Assembly (NCBI GenBank): GCA_903935355.1 | Contig: CAIZRK010000019.1 | Location: forward strand, 1 to 64,000 | Origin: an uncultured beta proteobacterium | GTDB taxonomy: Bacteria; Pseudomonadota; Gammaproteobacteria; Burkholderiales; Burkholderiaceae | Reading direction: 5' to 3' | Length of the DNA stretch: 64,000 bases | Shown here: positions 3,904 to 60,339 of the stretch, one piece after another | How the letters are laid out: each line of letters opens with the position of its first letter | Position numbering within the stretch: the stretch's first letter is position 1 | Position numbers and translations under genes: made by a program | Notes under the pieces: generated by a model | Told to the model about the DNA's origin: nothing | The model's database searches: none | What the model saw: the letters and a program-made list of their open reading frames with translations, nothing else

Positions 3904-4791
3904 ATGAGTTTAAAGTTGGACAGTTATATTGCACCACTATTTGTACTGATTTGGAGTACGGGATTTGTGATTGCCCGCCTTGCAATGCCTTATGTAGAGC
4001 CTGCCACCTTCTTATTTTGGCGGTTTGCTGGGGTTTTAATGGCGATGGCAGCTTTAAGTTTGGTGTGGCGAATTACATGGCCAAGTTGGCCTCAAATTAA
4101 GCATATTGCTGTGGCAGGACTGTTATTGCAATTTGGCTATCTGCTGGGCGTATGGTTTGCTGTCCGCTTAGGAATGACTGCGGGCTTGGTTGCCATCATT
4201 GTAGGCTTACAACCTATCCTAACGGCTTGGTTTGCTGCATGGATCTCTGAAAAAGTTAGTCCGAGACAGTGGATTGGGTTGGGATTTGGATTTGCTGGGG
4301 TAGCACTAGTCGTTGCGGAAAAGATTGGTTTTACTCACATCCCATTCGCAAGTTATATCTTGGCATTTGCAGCTTTACTGTCCATTACCTTTGGAACGCT
4401 TTACCAGAAAAAATATTGCCCTGTATTTGATTTGCGAGCAGGCTCCTCAATTCAGTTTGGCGTATCTGCTATTTTATGTTTTGCCTGCATGTATTACTTT
4501 GAGTCTGGTGTGATGGTGTGGAATGCACCCGTCGTTGGCGCCTTATTATGGGCAATTTTTCCTCTGTCGATTGGTAGTATTAGCCTGCTATTCATGATGA
4601 TTCGCAAAGGAGCGGCTACAAAAGTGACTAGCTTGTTGTATTTAACGCCACCAACCACTGCAGCTATGGCCTGGCTTATATTTGATGAGCCATTCACAAT
4701 GATGATGGCAGGGGGTCTGGCGTTGACAATGGGGGGTGTAATTTTGGTAAATGCCCGTCAATCCAATAATGTGGCGACTATTGCTGAATAG
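3904..4791 (+). CDS. EamA/DMT-superfamily transporter
   Basis: Integral inner-membrane protein of 295 residues with about ten hydrophobic segments arranged as two EamA repeats. It is typical of drug/metabolite transporters that export amino acids or other metabolites. The first helix has the family-like sequence LIWSTGFVIARLAMPYVEP, and the second repeat carries LIFDEPFTMMMAGG near residue 260. The substrate cannot be read from sequence. The first codons (ATGAGTTTAAAGTTGGACAG) share 14 bases with the IS-end-like sequence at 3091-3106. No ribosome-binding site is obvious, so the true start may need checking. Confidence 0.82.
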   Translation: MSLKLDSYIAPLFVLIWSTGFVIARLAMPYVEPATFLFWRFAGVLMAMAALSLVWRITWPSWPQIKHIAVAGLLLQFGYLLGVWFAVRLGMTAGLVAIIVGLQPILTAWFAAWISEKVSPRQWIGLGFGFAGVALVVAEKIGFTHIPFASYILAFAALLSITFGTLYQKKYCPVFDLRAGSSIQFGVSAILCFACMYYFESGVMVWNAPVVGALLWAIFPLSIGSISLLFMMIRKGAATKVTSLLYLTPPTTAAMAWLIFDEPFTMMMAGGLALTMGGVILVNARQSNNVATIAE

Positions 4792-4900: not shown

Positions 4901-5947
4901 ATGCATGTGAATCGATTTTGGATCTTGGTTTTATCTTGCCTTTTTGCATTAGGCATCACTATCAATTCAATAGCTAGCGCCGCTACTACTGAAAAACAGA
5001 GTAAATCGACTAAAGCGAAATCAACTTCTGCTGCAAGCGCACCGCCAAGTGCAAAGACAACGCTAAAAATATCAAAATCCGCCAAAAAACCCCGGAGTGT
5101 ACGAACTACCGTTACTCGTTCATCTGATGCAGTTGTAGTTGGCCCCCCATCTTTAGCGACAGCTCTTGGGTTACGTGGGCAACACGATCAATTGAGTCTT
5201 AAATCAAGCGTAGCTATGGTTGTTAATCAAGATACTAAAGAAGTGTATTTTGAGAAAAATTCTTCTGTGAGTTTGCCTATAGCATCGATTACTAAATTAA
5301 TGACAGCAATGGTGATCCTAGACTCTAACCTTCCTCTAGAGGACACAATCGTCATTAATGCTGATGATGTGAATATTTATCGTACATCTCGCTTATCGGG
5401 GGGGACTGTTTTAACGCGTGAAGAAGCGCTTTTACTGGCCTTAATGTCATCTGAGAATCGGGCGGCCTATACCTTGGGAAGAAACTATCCAGGCGGAATA
5501 CCTGCATTTGTGGATGCCATGAATCGCAAGGCCAGAGAGATTGGCATGAGCCATTCGCATTTTGCTGACCCCACTGGCCTAATGAGTGAAAACGTAGCAT
5601 CAGCTGAAGATTTAACGCGTCTATTGAGTGCCGCCTATCAATACAAAATGATTCGAGAGTTTTCTACCTGGCCAACCCTGACTATGGTGATTAATCAACG
5701 GCCACAAAAGTTCTTAAATACCAACAGATTGGTGCGTGCTGGTGATATGGATATTGGACTACAAAAAACGGGCTTTATCAACGCAGCTGGTAAGTGCCTG
5801 GTGATGCAAGCGAGGGTAAACAATACGCCTTTGCTATTGGTATTTTTGGATTCTGTTGGAACCCAATCTCGATTTGCTGATGCTGTGCGAGTACGTGATT
5901 GGTATGAGCGCTCTGGAGAACCACAACCCATCCGCCGCTTAATGTAA
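4901..5947 (+). CDS. pbpG: D-alanyl-D-alanine endopeptidase, PbpG/PBP7-like
   Basis: Periplasmic serine peptidase (S11 family) that cuts peptidoglycan cross-links. From the ATG at 4901 (GGAAGG eight to nine bases upstream) it has 348 residues. A signal peptide (VNRFWILVLSCLFALG) is followed by a Lys/Ser/Ala-rich low-complexity stretch to about residue 75. The three penicillin-binding motifs are present: SITK (S129, K132), SEN (184-186) and KTG (289-291). The frame is open upstream to 4814, but that extension lacks a signal-peptide layout. It converges on the IclR gene with a 21-bp gap. PbpG fits better than DacA because no C-terminal amphipathic anchor domain is present. Confidence 0.87.
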   Translation: MHVNRFWILVLSCLFALGITINSIASAATTEKQSKSTKAKSTSAASAPPSAKTTLKISKSAKKPRSVRTTVTRSSDAVVVGPPSLATALGLRGQHDQLSLKSSVAMVVNQDTKEVYFEKNSSVSLPIASITKLMTAMVILDSNLPLEDTIVINADDVNIYRTSRLSGGTVLTREEALLLALMSSENRAAYTLGRNYPGGIPAFVDAMNRKAREIGMSHSHFADPTGLMSENVASAEDLTRLLSAAYQYKMIREFSTWPTLTMVINQRPQKFLNTNRLVRAGDMDIGLQKTGFINAAGKCLVMQARVNNTPLLLVFLDSVGTQSRFADAVRVRDWYERSGEPQPIRRLM

Positions 5948-5968
5948 AAGCATCAAGAGGAATGGTAA

Positions 5969-6787
5969 TTAATGGTTTGAGCCGCTCATTTTTGGTTTAA
6001 AGCCCATCCCCTTAGAAATCTGCAAAGCCGTCTCTTGAAGTGAGCGCAGCCAATCTGCCTGAATACGATCGGTAGGAGCGCTTAAGGATAGGCCAGCAAC
6101 CAGCTTTCCGCTGTCATCCAATATAGAGGCAGCGAAACAACTAACACCAAGTTCTAACTCTTCATTGTCTTTAGAGCTAGATAATTGGCGAACTTGATTC
6201 AGTTCAGCTTCAAGCTTACCCAAATCCGTAATACTATTTCTGGTATGGCCTGAAAGCCCAGTTCTAGTAACATAAGCGCGCACTTGGTTAGGGTCATCGC
6301 TAGCTAAAAATAATTTACCAACAGAAGTGAGGTGTAGTGGTGCGCGACCACCAATGGCACGGACCACTTGCATTCCTGATCGTTCACTATAAGCACGATC
6401 GACATAAACGATTTCATCTCCTTGCCGTACTGAAAGATTAATAGTTTCACCGGTAAGTTTATGAAGGGCACGCATAGGGGCTTGAGCCGCCTCACGAACT
6501 GACAGACGAGCTTTAACTAAGTTACCCAATTCCAATAACTTTAAACCCAAGCGGTAGGTGCCTCCATCACCACGCTCAACCAAGCGACAGGCTACTAAGT
6601 CATTTAAAATTCGGTGGGCAGTCGAAGGGTGAAGTGTAGTTTGTGCAGCTAAATCCTTTAGGCTGCTAGATTCTTCATGAACCGCTAAAGCATCGAGCAA
6701 ATTGATCATGCGATCAAGCACTTGAATAGCAGTTTTACTAGCTTCTCCAGGAATCTTTAGTGGCTTAAGTGGTTTACTTGTTGTCAT
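5969..6787 (-). CDS. IclR-family transcriptional regulator
   Basis: 272-residue repressor/activator with an N-terminal winged helix-turn-helix (about residues 22-80; ATTLHPSTAHRILNDLVACRLVERG) and a C-terminal IclR effector domain (about 100-260; FAASILDDSGKLVAGLSLSAP). The family binds small acids or aromatics. It is transcribed away from the kor-like operon. The 248-bp divergent region between them holds a perfect palindrome 34 bp from its start codon and an FNR box further on. It therefore probably represses itself and may control the 2-oxoacid oxidoreductase operon. The inducer is unknown; a substrate or product of that enzyme is a reasonable guess. Confidence 0.9.
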   Translation of the reverse strand: MTTSKPLKPLKIPGEASKTAIQVLDRMINLLDALAVHEESSSLKDLAAQTTLHPSTAHRILNDLVACRLVERGDGGTYRLGLKLLELGNLVKARLSVREAAQAPMRALHKLTGETINLSVRQGDEIVYVDRAYSERSGMQVVRAIGGRAPLHLTSVGKLFLASDDPNQVRAYVTRTGLSGHTRNSITDLGKLEAELNQVRQLSSSKDNEELELGVSCFAASILDDSGKLVAGLSLSAPTDRIQADWLRSLQETALQISKGMGFKPKMSGSNH

Positions 6788-6820
6788 GAGGATATTGTAG
6801 CGATTTTATGAAAAATTGCA

Positions 6821-6845
6821 TATTATGAAATCCTATTTCATAATA
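6821..6845. promoter_or_regulatory. perfect inverted repeat, candidate IclR operator
   Basis: Arms TATTATGAAAT and ATTTCATAATA are exact reverse complements, 11 bp each, separated by 3 bp (CCT). The GAAAT/ATTTC core resembles operators of IclR-family proteins. It lies 34-58 bp upstream of the IclR start codon and 54 bp before the FNR box of the divergent operon. It is therefore placed for autorepression and possibly joint control. Confidence 0.65.
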
Positions 6846-6898
6846 GACCAAGGAATCAGCACAAGCAAATATCTAAATATGCTGCATCTGCATAAGAT

Positions 6899-6912
6899 TT
6901 GATCTAAATCAA
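6899..6912. promoter_or_regulatory. FNR/ANR box upstream of the kor-like operon
   Basis: TTGAT-CTAA-ATCAA matches the FNR/ANR consensus TTGAT-N4-ATCAA at all ten defined positions. Its centre is about 130 bp before the TTG start of the korC-like gene. If bound at the usual -41.5 position, transcription would start near 6947, leaving a leader of about 90 nt. The protein would be an oxygen-sensing CRP/FNR regulator encoded outside this window. Confidence 0.72.
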
Positions 6913-7035
6913 GTCATTTGGCTTTATTAGATCCATGTAGCTAGTTGGAAGGGTTTACCTGAGTGTGAAGCTTCTCCAAGTGCGTAGAATTCATCTATCA
7001 GGATTTACTACTAATTAAATTACAGGAGATAGCCT

Positions 7036-8865
7036 TTGCAATCTGTAAACCTTAACCCAGATTACTTTCATAAGGTTGTTGATTGTCAGTGGGCTTGTCC
7101 GGCACATACTCCTGTTCCTGAATACATTCGACTGATTGCTCAAGGTCGTTATGCTGATGCTTACATGATTAATTGGGTGTCGAATGTTTTTCCTGGGGTA
7201 CTTGGTAGAACTTGCGATAGACCTTGCGAACCTGCTTGTCGTCGGGGTAGGGTAGAGGAGAATAATGGCGTCGATCCAGAGCCTGTAGCGATTTGTCGCT
7301 TAAAGCGAGTTGCTGCAGATAACAAGGGAGATGTGCAAGCGCGCATGCCTAGTATCTCCAAAAAAAATGGCAAGCAGATTGCATGCGTTGGCGCTGGCCC
7401 ATCCTCGTTAACAGTTGCCCGAGATCTAGCCCCATTGGGATATGACGTCACTATTTACGATAGTGAAATTAAAGCTGGAGGATTTATTCGTTCACAAATT
7501 CCACGATTTCGTTTACCAGAAACTGTGATTGACGAAGAGACGGGATACATTTTAAATCTAGATGTCCAGTTCAAATCTGAGCAGCGAGTAGATTCTCTTA
7601 AGGCTCTATTACATGAAGGATACGATGCGATTTTTATAGGTTCTGGAGCTCCGCGGGGAAGGGATTTAGATCTAGTTGGACGTAAAGAGGCTGACAATGA
7701 TATTCATCTTGGTATTAATTGGCTTGCATCCGTCTCCTTTGGCCATATTACTAAGGTAGAGGGAAAGGTAATCGTATTAGGTGGCGGCAATACTGCCATG
7801 GATTGTTGTCGATCGGCGCGGCGGCTAGGCAGCAATGATGTCAAGGTAATCGTCCGTAGCGGGTTTGATGAAATGAAAGCATCTCCTTGGGAAAAAGAAG
7901 ATGCTCTTCATGAAGGCATTCCCATCCTGAATTATCACGTACCGATCAGTTTTGAATGCAAAGATGGGAAATTGTTTGGAATGCGTTTTGAGATCGTTAA
8001 AGCTATTTATGATGATCAGGGGAATAGAACGCTGGTGCCATCGGGCGAACCTGAAGTTTTTATTGAGTGTGATTCCGTCCTGCTGGCAGTAGGACAAGAG
8101 AATGCATTCCCCTGGATTGAGAAGGATTGCGGTATTGAATTTAATCGCTATGGTTTACCAGTGCTAAACAAAAATACCTTCCAATCCACATTATCAAATG
8201 TATTTTTTGGTGGAGATGCCGCATATGGGCCAAAGAATATTATTACCGCTGTTGCTCAAGGTCATACTGCCGCAATCTCTATCGACCGGTATTTACATCA
8301 TGAAGATATTTCTATTAGACCACCACCTAAGGTGAATTTAATGTCCCAAAAAATGGGTATTCATGAATGGAGTTATCACAATGATGTTTCTAAAGATGAG
8401 CGCTATGCAGTCCCTTGGGCCGCAGCTGAAATAGCACTTTCTAGTATCCGTATTGAGGTCGAGCTAGGGTTTGATGAGGCAACTGCCTTTAAAGAGGCTA
8501 GTCGCTGTCTTAATTGCGATGTCCAAACCATCTTTACTAGAGAGACGTGTATTGAGTGCGATGGTTGTGTGGATATTTGCCCGATGGATTGCATTACATT
8601 CACAGTTGGAGGATCTATCGATGATCTTAGGACGCGCCTTAAAGCCCCAGCATTAAATCATGAGCAAGATTTATATGTATCTGATAATTTAAAGTCTGGC
8701 AGGATCATGGTCAAAGACGAGGATGTGTGTTTACATTGCGGCTTATGTGCTGAACGCTGTCCAACTGGTGCATGGGATATGCAGAAATTCTTACTTAGCA
8801 CAGTACAGGCAGGACCCCAATGCCGCGATAAGCAAATTGGTCATGCGGGAAGGGGGGTTATATGA
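7036..8865 (+). CDS. FAD/iron-sulfur NAD(P)H oxidoreductase subunit (GltD-like, KorC-type)
   Basis: Electron-transfer subunit expected to shuttle electrons between NAD(P) and the 2-oxoacid oxidoreductase encoded just downstream. The start is a TTG with CAGGAG seven bases upstream. In order over 609 residues: a GltD-like N-terminal cysteine domain (C17, C21, C60, C64, C68, C87); an FAD motif VGAGPS (118-123); an NAD(P) motif GGGNTAMD (249-256); a second flavin motif GGDAAYGP; and a C-terminal ferredoxin domain with two 4Fe-4S motifs (C505/508/511/515 and C565/568/571/575). It overlaps korA by 4 bp (ATGA). Glutamate synthase small subunit is unlikely because there is no gltB and the ferredoxin tail is extra. 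I recall such a third subunit from 2-oxoglutarate:NADP oxidoreductase of Azoarcus. Confidence 0.82.
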   Translation: MQSVNLNPDYFHKVVDCQWACPAHTPVPEYIRLIAQGRYADAYMINWVSNVFPGVLGRTCDRPCEPACRRGRVEENNGVDPEPVAICRLKRVAADNKGDVQARMPSISKKNGKQIACVGAGPSSLTVARDLAPLGYDVTIYDSEIKAGGFIRSQIPRFRLPETVIDEETGYILNLDVQFKSEQRVDSLKALLHEGYDAIFIGSGAPRGRDLDLVGRKEADNDIHLGINWLASVSFGHITKVEGKVIVLGGGNTAMDCCRSARRLGSNDVKVIVRSGFDEMKASPWEKEDALHEGIPILNYHVPISFECKDGKLFGMRFEIVKAIYDDQGNRTLVPSGEPEVFIECDSVLLAVGQENAFPWIEKDCGIEFNRYGLPVLNKNTFQSTLSNVFFGGDAAYGPKNIITAVAQGHTAAISIDRYLHHEDISIRPPPKVNLMSQKMGIHEWSYHNDVSKDERYAVPWAAAEIALSSIRIEVELGFDEATAFKEASRCLNCDVQTIFTRETCIECDGCVDICPMDCITFTVGGSIDDLRTRLKAPALNHEQDLYVSDNLKSGRIMVKDEDVCLHCGLCAERCPTGAWDMQKFLLSTVQAGPQCRDKQIGHAGRGVI

Positions 8866-10712
8866 AATACATCGAAGCAACTAATGATTTCGTCATTAAA
8901 TTTGCAAATGTGAATGGTTCTGGTTCGGCATCAGCTAATGAATTATTTGCTAAAGCAATTTTACGTATGGGCGTTCCAGTTAGCCCCCGCAATATCTTTC
9001 CAAGCAATATTCAAGGGATGCCCACTTGGTACGAAGCTCGTGTTAGTGAGAAGGGTTATCTGGGTAGACGCGGTGGTGTTGACATGATGGTTGCTATGAA
9101 TCCGCAAACTTGGGATGCTGATATTGCTGAGATTGAACCGGGCGGCTACCTTTTTTATGACTCTACACGTCCAATTCCTAAAGATCAATTTCGCGAGGAT
9201 ATAAGGGTAATTGGTGTCCCATTAACAGAAATAAGTAATTGCGCCTACAGTGAAGCAAGACAACGTCAATTATTTAAAAATATTATTTATGTGGGTGTCT
9301 TATCTGCATTGCTTAATGTAGATGTTGCTATTTTTGAAAAGTTATTTTCTGAGCAATACAAAGGCAAAGAAGCATTACTAGAGTCTAATATTAAAGCCTT
9401 TAATTTAGGCTATGAATACGCAAAGAAAAATATAACTGAAGCTCTTGGTATTAGAGTTCAGCGTTCAGACCAGGTGGGGGATCGTATTTTTACTGATGGT
9501 AATAGTGCAATTGGATTAGGTTGCGTGTATGGTGGTGCCACAGTGGCTGCCTGGTATCCCATAACACCTTCTTCATCTGTACCAGAAGCATTTGAAAAGT
9601 TTTGTAGAAAATACAGAGTTGATTCTTCTACCGGTCTGAATCGTTTCGCTATTGTTCAAGCAGAGGATGAACTTGCCTCTATAGGTATGGTGATTGGAGC
9701 AGGATGGAATGGTGCCAGAGCTTTCACCGCAACCTCTGGTCCCGGTATTTCTTTAATGTCAGAATTTATTGGCCTTGCTTATTTTGCCGAGATACCAGTC
9801 ACAATTATAAATGTGCAGCGTGGAGGACCCTCTACTGGCATGCCCACGCGCACACAGCAGTCTGATTTACTTTTCTGTGCCTATGCATCACATGGAGATA
9901 CTAAGCATGTCATGCTATTTCCTCAAGATCCTAATGAATGTTTTGAGCAGGCCGCTACCGCCTTAGATTTAGCTGAAAGGCTTCAAACCCCGATTTTTTT
10001 AATGACCGATTTAGATATCGGCATGAATCAAAGGCTTTGTGATCCTTTTGCTTGGGATGAGGGGAGAACTTATGATCGCGGTAAGGTAATGAGCGCTCAA
10101 GAGCTTGAGGCCGGAAAAGATTTTGGGCGCTATAAGGATGTTGATGGCGATGGAATTCCTTGGCGCACCATTCCTGGAGCCCATCCCTCGAAAGGTAGCT
10201 TCTTCACTAGGGGAACTACCCGCGATCCGTACGCTAGGTATTCTGAGAAGGGTGGCGACTATATCTACAACATGGAACGATTAATTCGTAAGTTTGAGAC
10301 GGCGGCAAGCCTGGTTCCTCAGCCGATTATTAAAAATAATAAGAAGCCAAGCAAGTTAGGTGTAATTTATTTTGGATCAACAACTCCAGCAATGGAAGAG
10401 GCGCTAGATTTATTAAGTAATGATGGAGTTTATATTGATGCCCTGCGCTTGAGGGCTTTCCCATTTCCTAAATCAGTGAAACAGTTTATTGATACCCATG
10501 ACATAGTGTTTGTAGTTGAGCAAAATCGAGATGCACAAATGCATACATTGCTAGTGACAGAGCTTAATCTAAATAATGAATCCTTAGTTAAAGTTCTTCA
10601 TTATGATGGTACTCCCATTACTGCGCGATTTATTGTTGGAGAAATTCATATTCATCTTGGCACAAAGGGTTCTAAAGGTGATGCAATAGCACCCCGTAAG
10701 GAGACGGCATGA
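8862..10712 (+). CDS. korA: 2-oxoacid:acceptor oxidoreductase, fused gamma-alpha subunit (KorA-like)
   Basis: Large subunit of a thiamine-pyrophosphate enzyme that converts a 2-oxoacid and CoA to acyl-CoA and CO2 with a low-potential electron acceptor. Residues 1-195 form the gamma (catalytic) domain and 200-616 the alpha domain, the fused arrangement of KorA-type enzymes. The alpha domain contains YPITPSS (232-238), QAEDELASIG (266-275) and GPSTGMPTR (322-330), all hallmark positions. It starts within the stop codon of the flavin subunit and its own stop overlaps korB (ATGA), so the three should be made in fixed ratio. 2-Oxoglutarate is the most likely substrate by subunit layout; pyruvate or branched-chain oxoacids are not excluded. 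Confidence 0.87.
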   Translation: MKYIEATNDFVIKFANVNGSGSASANELFAKAILRMGVPVSPRNIFPSNIQGMPTWYEARVSEKGYLGRRGGVDMMVAMNPQTWDADIAEIEPGGYLFYDSTRPIPKDQFREDIRVIGVPLTEISNCAYSEARQRQLFKNIIYVGVLSALLNVDVAIFEKLFSEQYKGKEALLESNIKAFNLGYEYAKKNITEALGIRVQRSDQVGDRIFTDGNSAIGLGCVYGGATVAAWYPITPSSSVPEAFEKFCRKYRVDSSTGLNRFAIVQAEDELASIGMVIGAGWNGARAFTATSGPGISLMSEFIGLAYFAEIPVTIINVQRGGPSTGMPTRTQQSDLLFCAYASHGDTKHVMLFPQDPNECFEQAATALDLAERLQTPIFLMTDLDIGMNQRLCDPFAWDEGRTYDRGKVMSAQELEAGKDFGRYKDVDGDGIPWRTIPGAHPSKGSFFTRGTTRDPYARYSEKGGDYIYNMERLIRKFETAASLVPQPIIKNNKKPSKLGVIYFGSTTPAMEEALDLLSNDGVYIDALRLRAFPFPKSVKQFIDTHDIVFVVEQNRDAQMHTLLVTELNLNNESLVKVLHYDGTPITARFIVGEIHIHLGTKGSKGDAIAPRKETA

Positions 10713-11764
10713 CATTTATTAATAAGCCTAGTCTTCACCATCCATCCCTTCATCAAAATAAAGTTGGCTATACTCGGCGTGACTATGAGGGTCGAATCTC
10801 TACCTTATGTGCTGGTTGTGGTCATGACTCAATTTCAGCCGCAATAGTACAAGCTTGCTGGGAGATGGATGTTGAACCGCATCGGGTAGCTAAGCTATCT
10901 GGAATTGGATGTAGCTCTAAGACGCCGGATTATTTTCTCGGTGCGTCACATGGTTTTAATACAGTACATGGACGAATGCCCTCGGTTTTAACAGGGGCTA
11001 ATCTTGCTAACCGTGAATTGCTCTATCTGGGTATCTCTGGGGATGGGGACTCTGCATCTATTGGTTTGGGTCAATTTGCTAATGCCATGCGCCGCAATGT
11101 GCGTATGGCTTACATTGTAGAAAACAATGGGGTCTATGGATTAACAAAAGGTCAATTTTCTGCTACCGCCGATCGTGGATCTAAGAGTAAAAAAGGCGTT
11201 GTTAATAATGACAGTCCAGTCGATCTAGTTGGCTTGGCACTACAACTAGGAGCTACTTATGTTGCACGGAGCTTTTCTGGTGATAAGGATCAATTGGTAC
11301 CCTTAATCAAAGGGGCTATTGGACATGGGGGTGCCGCCTTTATTGACGTAATCAGCCCCTGCGTCACCTTCAATAATCATGGTGGTAGCACTAAGAGTTA
11401 TGACTATGTTAGGCAGCATAATGAAGCAGTGAGTCGGATTGACTTTATACCAATTCATCAAGAAATCACAGCTGATTACTCCCAAGGTCAAGTTATTGAG
11501 GTTCAGCAGCATGATGGTTCATATTTGCGCTTACGTAAATTACATGAAGACTACGACCCTACAAATCGATATGAAGCACTCAGTTATATCAATGAGCATC
11601 AGGAGCGAGGTGAGGTAGTTACGGGGTTACTTTATTTAGACCCTCTTGCCACAGATCTTCATGAGGCCTTAAATACATGCACTGAGCCCCTGAATTCTTT
11701 TGGGTCTGAAGAACTCTGTCCTGGACGGGATGCATTAATGAAGATTAATCTCGAATTGCGTTAA
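10709..11764 (+). CDS. korB: 2-oxoacid:acceptor oxidoreductase, beta (TPP-binding) subunit (KorB-like)
   Basis: Carries thiamine pyrophosphate and a 4Fe-4S cluster and pairs with the gamma-alpha subunit. Of 351 residues, the cluster cysteines appear to be C34 and C37 (CAGCG), C68 (GIGCSS) and C218 (ISPCVTFNNH), the usual four-ligand pattern. The TPP motif is GDGD (111-114) with NN at 139-140, followed by YGLTKGQ (143-149), diagnostic of this enzyme family. There is no C-terminal ferredoxin domain, so electrons must leave through the KorC-type subunit or a free ferredoxin. Start overlap with korA indicates translational coupling. Presence in an otherwise aerobic-looking genome is notable because the family is often oxygen-sensitive. 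Confidence 0.89.
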   Translation: MTFINKPSLHHPSLHQNKVGYTRRDYEGRISTLCAGCGHDSISAAIVQACWEMDVEPHRVAKLSGIGCSSKTPDYFLGASHGFNTVHGRMPSVLTGANLANRELLYLGISGDGDSASIGLGQFANAMRRNVRMAYIVENNGVYGLTKGQFSATADRGSKSKKGVVNNDSPVDLVGLALQLGATYVARSFSGDKDQLVPLIKGAIGHGGAAFIDVISPCVTFNNHGGSTKSYDYVRQHNEAVSRIDFIPIHQEITADYSQGQVIEVQQHDGSYLRLRKLHEDYDPTNRYEALSYINEHQERGEVVTGLLYLDPLATDLHEALNTCTEPLNSFGSEELCPGRDALMKINLELR

Positions 11765-11783
11765 TTATTCTCAAGGTGAAAAC

Positions 11784-12224
11784 ATGACAGATCGTACGGT
11801 ATCGCAATCTATTACACACCGAAATTTAGTGACTCTACCACCTCGGGCGACTGTCTTAGAGGCAGCGAGAATAATGACGAAGGCCAATACTGGATCTGTT
11901 TTGATCATGTCAATAAGTGGTGAGCTACATGGAATATTGACTGAGCGAGACTTGATGACAAGGGTCCTATCTAAGGCCTTAAATCCTGCCACCACAAGTG
12001 TTTCTGAAGTAATGACGCCTAAGCCTTACTGTATAACTCCTGAGATGACAGTATCGAATGCGGTACTTATCATGATTGAGAGAGGTTTTAGGCATTTACC
12101 TATTACGGCACCATCAGGAAAAGTGCTTGGCATCTTTTCTGTGAGGGATGCGTTGCCAAGGGAAATCGGCGAGGCTGTCAGTCTTTCTGAGTTCTTAGAT
12201 CAAGCTGGTAATACCTTAGCTTAA
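11784..12224 (+). CDS. CBS-domain pair protein
   Basis: Stand-alone 146-residue protein made of two CBS modules (about residues 8-62 and 72-130; note GILTERDLMTRV and VMTPKPYCITPEMTV). CBS pairs bind adenine nucleotides such as AMP, ATP, NAD or SAM and report energy state. It lies 19 bp after korB with an AAGGTG ribosome-binding site, so it is almost surely in the same transcript. Its role is unknown; regulating the oxidoreductase by adenylate or NAD(P) level is an inference from context. CBS-only proteins often appear in FNR/ANR regulons of proteobacteria. Confidence 0.85.
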   Translation: MTDRTVSQSITHRNLVTLPPRATVLEAARIMTKANTGSVLIMSISGELHGILTERDLMTRVLSKALNPATTSVSEVMTPKPYCITPEMTVSNAVLIMIERGFRHLPITAPSGKVLGIFSVRDALPREIGEAVSLSEFLDQAGNTLA

Positions 12225-12267
12225 ATAATTAATTTTTCAATAAATTTGACTTATAGAGGATAGGTAA

Positions 12268-12504
12268 ATGCAAGAGAAAACAGCAAAAAATGCACCATAT
12301 GCACTTCAGGTTGAGGAGGGCAAAACTTATTATTGGTGTTCGTGTGGGATAAGTAAAACTCAACCTCTATGTGATGGGATGCATCAGGCGACAGATTGTG
12401 AGCCTTGGGAATATGTAGCCACTAAAACTGAAACCGTATTCTTTTGTGGTTGCAAGCAGTCAGAAAGCGCCCCTTTATGTGATGGCATGCATACTAAATT
12501 GTGA
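12268..12504 (+). CDS. tandem CDGSH iron-sulfur protein
   Basis: A 78-residue protein with two complete CDGSH (mitoNEET-type) 2Fe-2S motifs. The first uses C24, C26, C35 and H39; the second uses C60, C62, C71 and H75. Each fits C-x-C-x2-S-x3-P-x-C-D-G-x-H, but both have Met where Ser, Ala or Thr is usual (CDGMH). Such proteins are redox-active electron carriers or sensors in the cytoplasm. It follows the CBS gene by 43 bp with a GAGGATAGG ribosome-binding site and is last in the kor-like operon before a hairpin. Exact partners are not known; an electron-transfer or cluster-transfer role to the 2-oxoacid enzyme is inferred. Confidence 0.86.
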   Translation: MQEKTAKNAPYALQVEEGKTYYWCSCGISKTQPLCDGMHQATDCEPWEYVATKTETVFFCGCKQSESAPLCDGMHTKL

Positions 12505-12668
12505 TGCTTTAAGACTTTAAATTTACTTCATTTATGAAAGCTGGCTTAATTGCAAGCATTAAGTGTGACAGGCTCGAAATCTTTGACATTTAAATGATGA
12601 GCAGTATCTGAGTTATTAAGTAAGAATAAATGCGGTAACTGTCACTATTGCCTTGTTTAACTAACAAA

Positions 12669-12700
12669 CTAAATTGGCGAATACCAATTTAGCTATTTTT
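12669..12700 (+). terminator. rho-independent terminator-like hairpin
   Basis: Arms CTAAATTGG and CCAATTTAG form a perfect 9-bp stem around a 6-base loop, followed by CTATTTTTCTTT. The stem is AT-rich, so strength is uncertain. The position, 165 bp after the CDGSH gene and before the next FNR box, fits the end of the operon. Confidence 0.6.
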
Positions 12701-12725
12701 CTTTAGCAATCTATTCAAAGTTGGT

Positions 12726-12739
12726 TTGATATAGATCAA
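12726..12739. promoter_or_regulatory. FNR/ANR box upstream of the maoC-pta fusion gene
   Basis: TTGAT-ATAG-ATCAA, again a ten-of-ten match to the FNR/ANR consensus, centred about 100 bp before the ATG at 12833. Together with the site at 6899-6912 it frames the two transcription units of this island. Confidence 0.72.
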
Positions 12740-12832
12740 ATTAATAAGTAGTATTAATGACTTAGCCTCAAAAGCCATTAGATTGTCATATTCAAAGTTG
12801 AGTATTGAAAAAACTTACTTTGAAGATGAGCT

Positions 12833-14218
12833 ATGATTGAGAATACCACCTATGATGAAATTAAAATTGGCCAGTTTGCACGACTAGTTCGCACTCTTAC
12901 CGTAGATGATGTCAAAGCTTTTGCAGCTGTATCGGGCGATAACAACCCTGCGCATTTAGATGATGACTATGCTCGTTCATCTTTATTTCATGAGGTAATT
13001 GGTCATGGCATGTGGAGTGGTTCGTTAATTTCCGCAGTCCTTGGCACTCAATTTCCTGGGCCAGGAACAATTTATTTGGGTCAGACCTTAGAATTTAAAA
13101 GACCGGTAAAGATTGGTGATACTGTTACCATACTCATCACGGTATTGCACAAGAACGATGTAAAAAAATCAGTTACCTTGGAGTGCTTAGGAACTAATCA
13201 GCATATGGAAAAAGTTCTCATAGGTGAAGCAGTAGTATTGGCACCTACTGAAAAAGTAAAAATTGAAATTGGTGCTACTCCTGAGATTCATCTGTTCGAT
13301 CCTGAAGCAGGCCTTAAAAAACTATTAGCTCTTGGAGCGCATCTCGGTCCAGTTACTTGTGCTATTGTGCACCCCTGTGATGAAAATTCAATTTTAGGCG
13401 CAATGGATGCGGCTAAAAATAATCTCATCATTCCTATTCTAGTCGGCCCTGAAATTAGAATCCGTGAATTAGCACGGCATTTGGAAATTGATTTAAATGG
13501 CATTCAAATTATCCCAAGCTCCCATAGTCATCATGCTGCCAAAATTGCTGCAGAGCTAGCTGCTTCTGGTCAAGCCGAGGCATTGATGAAAGGTAGCTTA
13601 CATACCGATGAATTAATGCATGCAGTACTGGCTAACAATGCTTTGCTAACTAAACATCGCTTATCTCATATATTCCGTTTTGAGGCTCCCTTATATAGTA
13701 AGCCCTTATTTATATCGGATGCAGCTATTAATATAAAACCGAATCTAATTGAAAAACGAGATATAGTTCAAAATGCAATCAATTTATTCCACATCTTAAA
13801 TGACCATGACCCAAAGGTCGCAATTTTATCAGCCGTCGAAAATGTTGAACCAGATATTCCCTCTACGATTGATGCTGCAGCGCTTTGTAAAATGGCAGAT
13901 CGCGGACAAATTACTGGCGGTATTTTAGATGGTCCATTAGCTTTTGATAATGCGATTTCACCAGAAGCAGTTAAAGTCAAGAAAATACATTCTTTGGTCG
14001 CAGGAGACGCAGATATTCTAATAGTTCCAGATTTAGAATCTGGAAATATGTTGGCAAAACAATTGGATTATTTAGGTGGAGCAACTGCATGCGGCATTGT
14101 CCTAGGCGGTCGGGTGCCAATAGCCTTAACTAGTAGGGCAGATGGTCGAAATACTCGTATGGCCTCTGCCCTATTAGTAAAGCTCGTTGCCCATCATTAT
14201 CGTAACGAGAAACCCTAA
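12833..14218 (+). CDS. bifunctional MaoC hydratase / phosphate acyltransferase (Pta/Ptb-type)
   Basis: Two enzymes in one chain of 461 residues. Residues about 5-145 are a MaoC hot-dog domain with the R-hydratase motif GDNNPAHLD (about 35-43) and GHGMWSG, expected to hydrate enoyl-CoA to (R)-3-hydroxyacyl-CoA. Residues about 160-455 are a phosphotransacylase of the phosphotransbutyrylase type (CDENSILGAMDAA, ITGGILDGPLAFDNAIS, GGRVPIALTSRADG), which swaps CoA for phosphate on acyl-CoA. No acetate or butyrate kinase gene is adjacent, so use of the acyl phosphate for ATP is unproven. Alone in its unit and preceded by an FNR box. Downstream, the 162 bp to pyrD hold no clear terminator. Confidence 0.88.
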   Translation: MIENTTYDEIKIGQFARLVRTLTVDDVKAFAAVSGDNNPAHLDDDYARSSLFHEVIGHGMWSGSLISAVLGTQFPGPGTIYLGQTLEFKRPVKIGDTVTILITVLHKNDVKKSVTLECLGTNQHMEKVLIGEAVVLAPTEKVKIEIGATPEIHLFDPEAGLKKLLALGAHLGPVTCAIVHPCDENSILGAMDAAKNNLIIPILVGPEIRIRELARHLEIDLNGIQIIPSSHSHHAAKIAAELAASGQAEALMKGSLHTDELMHAVLANNALLTKHRLSHIFRFEAPLYSKPLFISDAAINIKPNLIEKRDIVQNAINLFHILNDHDPKVAILSAVENVEPDIPSTIDAAALCKMADRGQITGGILDGPLAFDNAISPEAVKVKKIHSLVAGDADILIVPDLESGNMLAKQLDYLGGATACGIVLGGRVPIALTSRADGRNTRMASALLVKLVAHHYRNEKP

Positions 14219-14380
14219 TTGGGAATAGATATGGCATCCACTTTCCAAGGGGCTTTTTTGTCCTCAATTTTCCCCAATGATTCTTTTGTAGATCGTAATT
14301 GTGTAATACGCTGAATTAAAGCTTAACTAGTAATTTGAGACTTCATTAAAGTAAGGATCTTTAATGCACGAAGAATTGCA

Positions 14381-15412
14381 TTAACGGCGAATAGCATCAG
14401 CACACTCTTTAATGAGTGCAGGCCCCTTAAAGATTAGTCCGCTATAAAGCTGAATCAAGCTAGCGCCAGCCGCGATCTTCTCTTGAGCATCGCCCCCCGA
14501 AAGAATGCCGCCCACTCCGATAATGGGTAGGTGATCTTGGAGCCTAGCTTTAAGTATTTTAATTACTTCAGTTGATGCTGATTTGACGGGTGCACCAGAT
14601 AAGCCGCCAGCTTCATTGCTATATTCCATCCCACTCACTGTTTCACGAGCAATTGTCGTATTGGTGGCAATAATGGCGTCAATTCTAAACTCGAGAGAAA
14701 GATCTGCAATGAGCTCGATATCGTTAAAGTTTAAGTCAGGAGCAATCTTTAAGAACAGGGGCTTGCGCTTACCAAAGCGGTCGCTTAAACGTGCACGAGC
14801 AATATCTAAAGTCCCAAGCAAGGATCTAAGCATTTCTTCGCCCTGCAGAGCACGAAGGTTTTGAGTATTTGGGGACGAGATATTCACAGTGATATAGGTG
14901 GCAATTTCATAAACTGCTTCCATTGCTAGGACATAATCGCTAGCAGCATCCTCTATGGGGGTGCTAGCATTTTTCCCAATATTGAGCCCTAGAACGCCAC
15001 CATTTTGCCAAAAACTAGATCGACGAACTCTTGCTACACAGGCATCTACGCCATCATTATTAAAGCCCATTCGATTAATAATGCCTTGGGCTACTGGCAA
15101 GCGAAACATCCGAGGTTTTGGATTGCCTGCTTGTGGCTTTGGGGTGACCGTGCCAATTTCTAAAAATCCAAATCCTAACGCAGCTAAAGCATCAATATGC
15201 TTACCGTCTTTATCAAGCCCGGCAGCTAAACCAACGGGATTCGGAAAAGTAATATCACAAAGGGTCCGTGGATCTGAAGCAGGCTGTTTTATCAAACATT
15301 GTAATAAGCCCCAGCGCTGTGCACGATCTAAATTGCTGAGCGTGAGATTATGCGCCTTTTCTGGATCCAGATTAAAAAGCCAAGGACGTAAAAATGAGTA
15401 ACTATCCACCAT
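14381..15412 (-). CDS. pyrD: dihydroorotate dehydrogenase (quinone), class 2
   Basis: Membrane-associated flavoenzyme of pyrimidine synthesis that oxidises dihydroorotate to orotate with ubiquinone. At 343 residues with an N-terminal helical region before the barrel (PWLFNLDPEKAHNLTL) it is class 2. The FMN barrel shows GLAAGLDKDGKHIDAL, the catalytic serine in NISSPNT and GVGGILSGGDAQEKIAAGA near the C-terminus. It starts 8 bp after the stop codon of bpt on the same strand, so it probably ends the transcript NUDIX-aat-bpt-pyrD. Confidence 0.96.
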   Translation of the reverse strand: MVDSYSFLRPWLFNLDPEKAHNLTLSNLDRAQRWGLLQCLIKQPASDPRTLCDITFPNPVGLAAGLDKDGKHIDALAALGFGFLEIGTVTPKPQAGNPKPRMFRLPVAQGIINRMGFNNDGVDACVARVRRSSFWQNGGVLGLNIGKNASTPIEDAASDYVLAMEAVYEIATYITVNISSPNTQNLRALQGEEMLRSLLGTLDIARARLSDRFGKRKPLFLKIAPDLNFNDIELIADLSLEFRIDAIIATNTTIARETVSGMEYSNEAGGLSGAPVKSASTEVIKILKARLQDHLPIIGVGGILSGGDAQEKIAAGASLIQLYSGLIFKGPALIKECADAIRR

Positions 15413-59223: not shown

Positions 59224-60339
59224 TTAAGATTCCTGGTCAATGAAGCGTCGAGGATCATTAATAGGCCTTAAGGGCATTATGTGAATTTGATCGCTATCAA
59301 ATTCTATATACATTTGACCTCCAAGGATCATGCCTAAACGCTTAACCTCTGCAGACGAGGCCTCCCAATTCACCAACTGATCGCTATTAAGTATTTTTAA
59401 CTGAATAACTGCAATCTGTCCTAGGCTGCTAATCTGCTCAACCGTTGCTGGTACGCTTATTCCAGAGGGCATTTGATGTATGCTTATGCCAGATTGGGGT
59501 ATCACCCAGGCAACTGCGACATGGGGTGGAATTTTCCCTTTGTCTGCCACGGTAAATGCTTGATTGCAACCATGCCAAGTAAGGCTGCCAGCATTAAATA
59601 CCCCATGAAACATATTGTTAATACCAACCAATTCGGCAACACGTGAGTTGCGAGGTTTCTGGAATAGGGTTTGAGGTGAGGCAGTTTGCAGACCAATGCC
59701 TCTATCAATTACCGTAATTCGGTCAGCCAATAAATTAGCTTCGCGTAAATCGTGGGTAACCAAGAGTATGGGGATGTTTAGATCCTTACGTAAATCGGCT
59801 AAGGTTTTATACAAACTTTGTCTAGTTGGAGCATCGATTGCCGAAAAGGGTTCATCGAGCAATAGGATTTTAGGCTGACGCGCTAATGCTCTAGCTAGAG
59901 CGACACGCTGTTGTTGTCCGCCTGATAATTGATTGGGCATCCGCTTAGCAAGTTCGGAAATGCCCATTCGATCAAGTAACTCCATCGCTATCGTTTTACG
60001 CTTGTTTGCGCTTAAGCCAGAATTTTGCAATGGAATGTACACATTCTCTAAGGCAGTGAGATGAGGAAATAGTGCGTATTGCTGAAAAAGAAACCCACAT
60101 GAACGCTTTGCGGGGCTGAGTGATTTAGTGATTCCATGGATTTCATCTCCTAAAAACCAGATTTCACCATCACATTCTATAAACCCAGTACTGGCATTAT
60201 TTAATCCAGCAATAGTCCTCAATACTGTCGTCTTACCGCTGCCTGAGGGGCCAACTAGGGCATGTAATTCTCCCGAGAAGCAATCTAAGCTCATCTGTAT
60301 TGGCATTGGCATACTTTGGGAAACTTTAATTTTGAGCAT
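59224..60339 (-). CDS. modC: molybdate ABC transporter ATP-binding protein
   Basis: 371 residues. Walker A GPSGSGKTT (30-38), signature LSGGQQQRVALARALA, Walker B ILLLDEPFSAID and the switch His in LLVTHDL. The C-terminal third (about 235-371) is a TOBE/mop-like domain that binds molybdate in ModC. The 1-bp overlap with modB supports a dedicated transporter. Family-level alternative: sulfate or iron ABC ATPase; pairing with the ModB-like permease and the nearby SoxC molybdoenzyme favours molybdate. Confidence 0.88.
   Translation of the reverse strand: MLKIKVSQSMPMPIQMSLDCFSGELHALVGPSGSGKTTVLRTIAGLNNASTGFIECDGEIWFLGDEIHGITKSLSPAKRSCGFLFQQYALFPHLTALENVYIPLQNSGLSANKRKTIAMELLDRMGISELAKRMPNQLSGGQQQRVALARALARQPKILLLDEPFSAIDAPTRQSLYKTLADLRKDLNIPILLVTHDLREANLLADRITVIDRGIGLQTASPQTLFQKPRNSRVAELVGINNMFHGVFNAGSLTWHGCNQAFTVADKGKIPPHVAVAWVIPQSGISIHQMPSGISVPATVEQISSLGQIAVIQLKILNSDQLVNWEASSAEVKRLGMILGGQMYIEFDSDQIHIMPLRPINDPRRFIDQES

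Follow-up and report, generated by a model that had tools for sequence, protein, structure and literature searches.

A probably oxygen-regulated 2-oxoacid oxidoreductase island between iclR and pyrD in a Polynucleobacter lineage

We analysed a stretch of 64,000 nucleotides (positions 1 to 64,000 of contig CAIZRK010000019.1, assembly GCA_903935355.1, from an uncultured beta proteobacterium), hereafter the window, which carries between the genes iclR and pyrD an island of six genes: an operon korC-korA-korB for a predicted 2-oxoacid oxidoreductase (KorCAB), a gene for a CBS-domain protein, a gene for a double CDGSH protein and a gene for a MaoC-phosphotransacylase fusion. As far as its sequence can tell, the island is real, it is probably oxygen-regulated, and its enzyme, of a kind already known, stands in regulatory and genomic surroundings that are new. 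The reading that we prefer, to which we give a probability of about 0.6, is that KorCAB is an NAD(P)-linked oxidoreductase of 2-oxoglutarate or of 2-oxoacids more generally, of the kind of the 2-oxoglutarate:NADP+ oxidoreductase (KGOR) of Azoarcus evansii, and that, alongside the usual 2-oxoglutarate dehydrogenase, it is induced when oxygen is low. The features of the region are the following (ORF, open reading frame; TPP, thiamine diphosphate).

5969-6787, minus strand: iclR-family regulator gene (Pfam IclR_C and HTH_IclR); flanking core gene, outside the insertion
6821-6845, unstranded: palindrome of 25 bp, TATTATGAAAT-CCT-ATTTCATAATA, in the iclR/korC intergenic region; candidate operator, presumably of the IclR type
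6899-6912, unstranded: perfect FNR box, 137 nt 5' of the korC start codon
7036-8865, plus strand: korC, TTG start; GltD-like FAD/NAD(P) subunit with one Fe-S domain at the N-terminus and another at the C-terminus (ORF call, Pfam, NCBIfam)
8862-10712, plus strand: korA, fused gamma-alpha subunit of a 2-oxoacid oxidoreductase (ORF call, Pfam, TIGR03710)
10709-11764, plus strand: korB, TPP and [4Fe-4S] subunit (ORF call, Pfam, alignment)
11784-12224, plus strand: CBS gene, two CBS domains (Pfam); candidate adenylate sensor
12268-12504, plus strand: double-CDGSH gene, CDGSH-type [2Fe-2S], with CDGMH in both motifs (Pfam)
12669-12692, plus strand: hairpin and T-run, terminator-like, closing the kor operon
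12726-12739, unstranded: perfect FNR box, 107 nt 5' of the MaoC-phosphotransacylase start
12833-14218, plus strand: MaoC-phosphotransacylase fusion gene, bifunctional enoyl-CoA hydratase/phosphate acetyltransferase (NF006045)
14381-15412, minus strand: pyrD, right flank of the insertion (ORF call); presumably dihydroorotate dehydrogenase, judging from the sequence

The ORF calls and the Pfam and NCBIfam families confirmed the layout given in an earlier reading made from the letters of the window (the sequence-only reading), namely korC-korA-korB with two ATGA overlaps, which join korC to korA and korA to korB, followed by the CBS gene, the tandem CDGSH gene, the hairpin and the MaoC-phosphotransacylase gene. 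That reading let the region start at 6788, which calls for one correction: some of the sequence at 6788-7035 belongs to the former promoter of iclR and includes the palindrome. As the hairpin at 12669-12692 resembles a terminator, the MaoC-phosphotransacylase gene is probably a separate transcription unit; eight terminator-like sites were found in the region for 5.2 expected by chance. An Rfam search of positions 5900-15000 gave no RNA element at the gathering score.

KorCAB as a 2-oxoacid oxidoreductase

KorA passed the NCBIfam model TIGR03710 (593.5 bits for a cut-off of 482.75), and its YPITP motif (Y232-P236) and carboxylate arginine R320 are invariant in 96 aligned rows. The GDG motif of KorB (G111-G113) and its cysteines C34, C37, C68 and C218 are invariant in 93 rows. 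The two subunits thus carry the marks of the 2-oxoacid:acceptor oxidoreductase superfamily (OAFO): TIGR03710, YPITP, the arginine, GDG and four cysteines for one [4Fe-4S] cluster. KorB stayed below the cut-off of TIGR02177 (199.2 for 261.9), and neither KorB nor KorC passed an NCBIfam cut-off among the matches listed. In KorC the loop VRSGFxEMKASPWEKE and the cysteines are nearly invariant in 87 rows, and R274 and K281 are invariant in the same rows; the cysteines suggest that the subunit holds four [4Fe-4S] clusters. The Pfam and NCBIfam families support the proposal of the sequence-only reading that KorCAB makes acyl-CoA from a 2-oxoacid and exchanges electrons with NAD(P), the putative NAD(P) subunit being a flavoprotein.

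The nearest solved chain to KorA is 6n2n_A, and the substrate pocket can be compared with that of StOFOR1 of Sulfolobus. Of the five residues that line the substrate there, four recur: Ser41 and Thr349 as S48 and T325 of KorA (invariant in 96 rows), Lys49b and Leu123b as K71 and L145 of KorB (invariant in 93 rows). In the part of Yan 2016 (PMC5020499) available to us, the changes K49I and D468A abolish the 2-oxoglutarate activity of StOFOR1, and the pyruvate-specific DaPFOR has Ile and Asn in place of Lys and Leu. The conservation of these residues favours, short of proof, a broad or a 2-oxoglutarate enzyme over a pyruvate-only one. KorA scored well under the pyruvate-specific NCBIfam cut-offs (for instance 60.8 for 550), and under the 2-oxoglutarate ones as well. 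The genome also encodes a SucA-type 2-oxoglutarate dehydrogenase, to which KorCAB would add another route for times of low oxygen.

FNR boxes and the FNR protein

We searched the genome of the window (1.80 Mb in 44 contigs, 94.1% complete) for the FNR box TTGAT-N4-ATCAA. Nineteen perfect boxes were found, against one for the same pattern read backwards, which served as the control; the perfect boxes that the sequence-only reading had placed at 6899-6912 and 12726-12739 are there as described. Within the window, 76 matches with at most two mismatches were counted for 55.4 expected, just above chance, and hence the evidence rests on the perfect boxes. The third perfect box of the window, at 59287, lies inside an ORF. 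Eight of the 19 are intergenic by the ORF calls used. Five of these stand 5' of korC, of the MaoC-phosphotransacylase gene, of ccoN, of a Usp gene and of a DsrE gene; the others lie 5' of a partial gene with a secreted-protein-like start, 5' of an unnamed ORF of 83 aa, and between a YjgF gene and a gene which we take to be cytochrome-like (the partial gene, the 83-aa ORF and the cytochrome-like gene being without a Pfam match). A ninth box, at 4166-4179 of locus L049, is situated just 5' of the likely start of fnr, within a probable N-terminal over-extension of the call, and suggests autoregulation of fnr.

The FNR protein itself, whose presence was a crucial point for the sequence-only reading, was found: it passes NF008365 narrowly (229.3 for 228), has the C-X2-C-X5-C arrangement (CSVCVLGQFC), and is encoded in the region of the cbb3 oxidase genes, where ccoN is boxed. 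It was matched at E<=1e-70 in 49 of the 61 same-genus genomes, five others giving weaker matches and seven none, which means that FNR is normal in the genus. In the part of PMC7522526 (on P. asymbioticus) available to us, tables list cbb3 subunits and the word "fnr" does not occur.

We then considered 84 distinct korC upstream regions (that of the window included), taking boxes at most 350 nt 5' of korC and comparing them with 200 dinucleotide shuffles. A box with at most one mismatch occurs in 18 of the 84 regions against 0.6 in the shuffles (maximum 3), a perfect box in seven against 0.015, and 11 boxes lie 115-150 nt 5' of korC against 0.09; as the regions are mutually related, the shuffles overstate their independence and the enrichment is weaker than these figures. 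The boxed loci are spread over several branches of the KorA+KorB tree described below, other genera included. Among the seven same-genus loci with a readable upstream region, the window and the P. finlandensis locus (L075) have a perfect box and L076 has one with a single mismatch; in P. finlandensis the box stands 145 nt 5' of korC and KorCAB occupies a genomic site other than that of the window. FNR control of korC is thus likely in some lineages, not in all.

Distribution of KorCAB and of its companions

KorA was found in eight of the 61 same-genus genomes, the genome of the window included, and at least 573 confirmed relatives exist in named genomes, among them Rhodoferax, Variovorax, Ramlibacter and Simplicispira; the best 80 of these were kept. 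The sequence-only reading had called the island unexpected in an aerobic-looking betaproteobacterium, a view that these relatives and the frequency of FNR in the genus do not support. A tree of KorA and KorB, built by a quick method from 92 rows, places the window inside this diversity, in a clade of nine rows with a support of 95 in the approximate likelihood ratio test (SH-aLRT); the clade is composed of the same-genus loci and of rows L076, L080 and L105 from metagenome-assembled genomes (MAGs). This nested position suggests that KorCAB probably entered the lineage once and was afterwards lost or moved often. Three MAG contigs with KorAB among Burkholderiales in the tree, L077, L080 and L124, are titled Bordetella parapertussis, Thermoflexus hugenholtzii and Desulfovibrionaceae; their titles or bins may be wrong.

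Linkage was counted in 94 loci, the window and three duplicates being excluded. The order is strongly kept, korC being 5' of korA in 91 of the 92 loci with room, and overlaps of 4 bp join korC to korA in 74 of 91 loci and korA to korB in 79 of 93. Without the window, the start codon of korC is TTG in 72 of the 84 loci, GTG in eight, ATG in three and unclear in one, while ATG opens korA in 87 of 91 loci and korB in all 93. Some of the TTG assignments may be mistaken, since an in-frame ATG lies further upstream in some loci. One might guess from this pattern that the translation of KorC is capped and that the other subunits are made by coupling.

A CBS gene lies 18-110 bp 3' of korB in 59 of the 87 loci with room (tblastn, gaps measured), or in 53 of 87 when counted by phmmer under a strict limit on the gap. 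By tblastn, at more than 50% identity, the double CDGSH gene was found in eight of the 94 loci, all in the Polynucleobacter clade of the window; in L062 and L105 it is 5' of korC. Its ligand Cys and His residues are conserved in nine rows, one row ending short at the last His. None of the 97 other KorCAB loci that were fetched, with flanks up to about 9 kb, contains a match to the MaoC-phosphotransacylase at E<=1e-6. Of the linkage that the sequence-only reading had expected in relatives, the part concerning the CBS gene therefore stood, while the double CDGSH gene was found in one clade only and the MaoC-phosphotransacylase is unlinked in the loci fetched; we rejected the six genes as a single conserved unit.

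Other neighbours were noticed in the single-linkage clustering, in which shadow ORFs are mixed with genes: what we take to be an RnfB-like ferredoxin gene, 3' and on the opposite strand, in up to 19 loci (for example 8802-9470 of L083), and a presumably hemerythrin-like gene about 2.5 kb 5' of korA in 13 loci.

Insertion between iclR and pyrD

In ten of ten relatives, picked from the iclR matches, iclR and pyrD are neighbours; in the window six genes separate them. The six genes form a block of about 7.5 kb that a single Polynucleobacter lineage has gained by insertion at this place. Three of the ten relatives (G034, G001 and G003) have iclR and pyrD adjacent and KorCAB at another site. Hence, we regard iclR as a core neighbour and rejected IclR as a member of the island. 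Among 36 other same-genus genomes, iclR is 84-88% identical in 24 and 70-83% identical in ten; like the MaoC-phosphotransacylase, it is without a match at E<=1e-6 in the 97 other KorCAB loci, within the same flanks. The operator-like palindrome at 6821-6845 could still act on korC. One of its halves resembles the sequence upstream of iclR in most of the ten relatives, and relatives without the island preserve one half better than the other.

No 9-mer is common to 6788-7035 and 14218-14381 that could be a direct repeat at the ends of a mobile element. There is no step in GC at the island either: over the first 25 kb the GC fraction per 1 kb varies from 0.37 to 0.48, with its minimum at 12-13 kb.

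The MaoC-phosphotransacylase gene

The MaoC-phosphotransacylase matches NF006045 over its full length (683.4 bits for a cut-off of 282). Among 101 genomes its best relatives are 63% identical (in another family) and 44% identical (in the same genus). Its own genome encodes a second phosphotransacylase, 42% identical, beside acetate kinase and an ORF of 792 aa (L073, G000:C19:95000-106000); in this locus a 1-mismatch FNR box is found at locus position 10143, 114 nt before the 792-aa ORF. Of 30 homologues, the copy of the window alone showed a box in the 400 nt 5' of the gene when one mismatch was allowed, although 20 of the 30 alignments are partial and the true upstream sequence of some homologues may therefore have escaped the scan. 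The gene was probably acquired separately and is probably transcribed separately.

Proposed mechanism and alternatives

According to the reading that we prefer, a fall in oxygen would let FNR switch on the kor operon. KorAB, with TPP, would decarboxylate 2-oxoglutarate, and possibly pyruvate and other 2-oxoacids, to acyl-CoA, the electrons passing from the [4Fe-4S] cluster of KorB through the clusters and FAD of KorC to NAD(P)+; if NAD(P) is the acceptor, redox potentials would favour the formation of acyl-CoA. Lipoate dehydrogenase complexes are inhibited by NADH, and KorCAB would carry the 2-oxoacid step when they slow. The CBS protein would probably adjust KorCAB to the adenylate charge of the cell. 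The double CDGSH protein would probably serve the Fe-S chemistry of KorCAB or accept its electrons. The MaoC-phosphotransacylase, with its own FNR box, may convert acyl-CoA to acyl phosphate, from which acetate kinase, encoded elsewhere in the genome, would make ATP. We also considered a wider scheme, which we hold to be doubtful: KorCAB and its CBS protein would be a general low-oxygen stand-in, gated by energy charge, for the lipoate 2-oxoglutarate dehydrogenase in Burkholderiales, in which FNR sets the amount, CBS reads AMP/ATP and gates, the conserved UUG start caps the flavoprotein, CDGSH has been added in Polynucleobacter as electron acceptor or cluster donor, and the island moves between sites.

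Several points weigh against the reading that we prefer. KorA stayed below the cut-off of the 2-oxoglutarate-specific NCBIfam models (167.7 for 579), the fifth pocket residue, Asp468a of StOFOR1, is T452 in KorA, and KorC has in its VRSGFxEMKASPWEKE loop S275, invariant in 87 rows, where five aligned solved relatives have the second Arg of an RR pair. The CBS gene is missing from 28 of the 87 loci. By eye, no clear -10 element was seen at class II distance, and a promoter scan gave no excess (15 sites for 22.3 expected), one of the sites listed overlapping the box at 12726. Sixty-six of the 84 korC upstream regions, including those of the Variovorax loci listed, have no box, and the independence that the shuffles overstate for these related regions weighs on the same side. 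Four of the seven readable same-genus loci have no box within 350 nt 5' of korC; in L062, which is among them, a box with one mismatch stands 499 nt from korC and 245 nt 5' of the CDGSH gene, the first of the operon there.

Some of these points feed rival explanations. T452 leaves the use of 2-oxoglutarate unproved, so that the main substrate might be pyruvate or a branched or aromatic 2-oxoacid, KorCAB and the MaoC-phosphotransacylase forming a fermentative route to ATP from acyl-CoA through acyl phosphate. The perfect boxes at both units and the presence of acetate kinase would fit such a route, but the absence of the MaoC-phosphotransacylase from the 97 other KorCAB loci fetched, the Lys and Leu of the pocket and the low score of KorA on the pyruvate-specific models, though it missed the 2-oxoglutarate cut-offs as well, make it rather unlikely. 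It is also unlikely that KorCAB chiefly gives low-potential electrons to a ferredoxin or a reductase, with NAD(P) as a side acceptor, as proposed for anaerobic degraders of aromatic compounds. KorC does have two C-terminal cysteine motifs of the ferredoxin type, the closest named plasmid relative outside Variovorax belongs to Aromatoleum aromaticum, and KorAB of Thauera aromatica supplies benzoyl-CoA reductase according to the part of PMC9973337 available to us; against this, many records of Variovorax, Ramlibacter and Rhodoferax contain the enzyme, and the clustering of KorCAB neighbours gave no benzoyl-CoA reductase family (the genome itself was not searched for one). Finally, the boxes might be incidental and the operon constitutive or under the divergent IclR regulator, in agreement with the palindrome between iclR and korC and with the many unboxed upstream regions. 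This we consider quite improbable, given that iclR stays beside pyrD where the site has no KorCAB, that P. finlandensis has a perfect box at a similar distance with KorCAB at another site, and that boxes are enriched and clustered in position across korC upstream regions.

Comparison with known systems

Enzymes of this type are familiar, but little seems to have been written on the switch or on the genes that often accompany them. In a literature search covering titles and the openings of abstracts, no FNR control and no CBS or CDGSH partner was described for a KGOR-type enzyme, a weak result in view of this limited coverage; the available parts of papers on A. aromaticum EbN1 (PMC9765128) and Cupriavidus JMP134 (PMC2842291) contain nothing on a kor operon. 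With the island, a class of Fe-S enzymes that is mostly treated in connection with anaerobes or degraders of aromatic compounds is linked to probable control by oxygen in betaproteobacteria of freshwater and soil, and CBS emerges as a frequent partner of KorCAB with a role open to experiment. It also offers a view on how very small freshwater bacteria may sustain the 2-oxoacid step near oxic-anoxic boundaries.

The KGOR of A. evansii is, like KorCAB, a betaproteobacterial 2-oxoacid oxidoreductase with a GltD-like NAD(P) subunit, a likeness of description, not of compared sequences: in the parts of the papers available to us, a KGOR subunit is placed in the GltD-like family (PMC10134865; for the enzyme, Ebenau-Jehle et al. 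2003) and the enzyme is also cited in PMC8163825. The nearest relative of KorCAB in the vicinity of A. evansii is on plasmid 2 of A. aromaticum EbN1 (NC_006824.1), in the order CBS-KorC-KorA-KorB; KorC, KorA and KorB are 66-72% identical to those of the window, and the KorC loop is the same save for D/E changes. There too a CBS-domain gene belongs to the cluster, but it lies 5' of korC and encodes a different protein, without a tblastn match to that of the window; moreover, acyl-CoA dehydrogenase genes are adjacent, and the 17.5 kb contain no FNR box even when one mismatch is allowed. Another plasmid match (L219), which carries no annotation, was left aside.

The solved enzymes 6n2n, which we take to be the OGOR of Magnetococcus marinus, and StOFOR of Sulfolobus (5b46-5b48) share with KorCAB the core of a fused gamma-alpha and a beta subunit and the YPITP motif, StOFOR having in addition the Lys and Leu of the pocket, but they are distant in sequence (224.6 bits or less). 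Unlike KorCAB, StOFOR is a two-subunit enzyme without a ferredoxin domain, according to the available part of PMC5020499. The fusion of the window resembles the NF006045 enzymes over its full length, and plasmid relatives carry that name; in L230, L231 and L233 these enzymes adjoin acetate kinase, whereas the copy of the window stands alone with its own FNR box. With the FNR regulons of the E. coli type, the genome of the window shares the box, an FNR with CX2CX5C and boxed ccoN and Usp genes; it differs from them in that FNR probably also acts on a KGOR-type operon.

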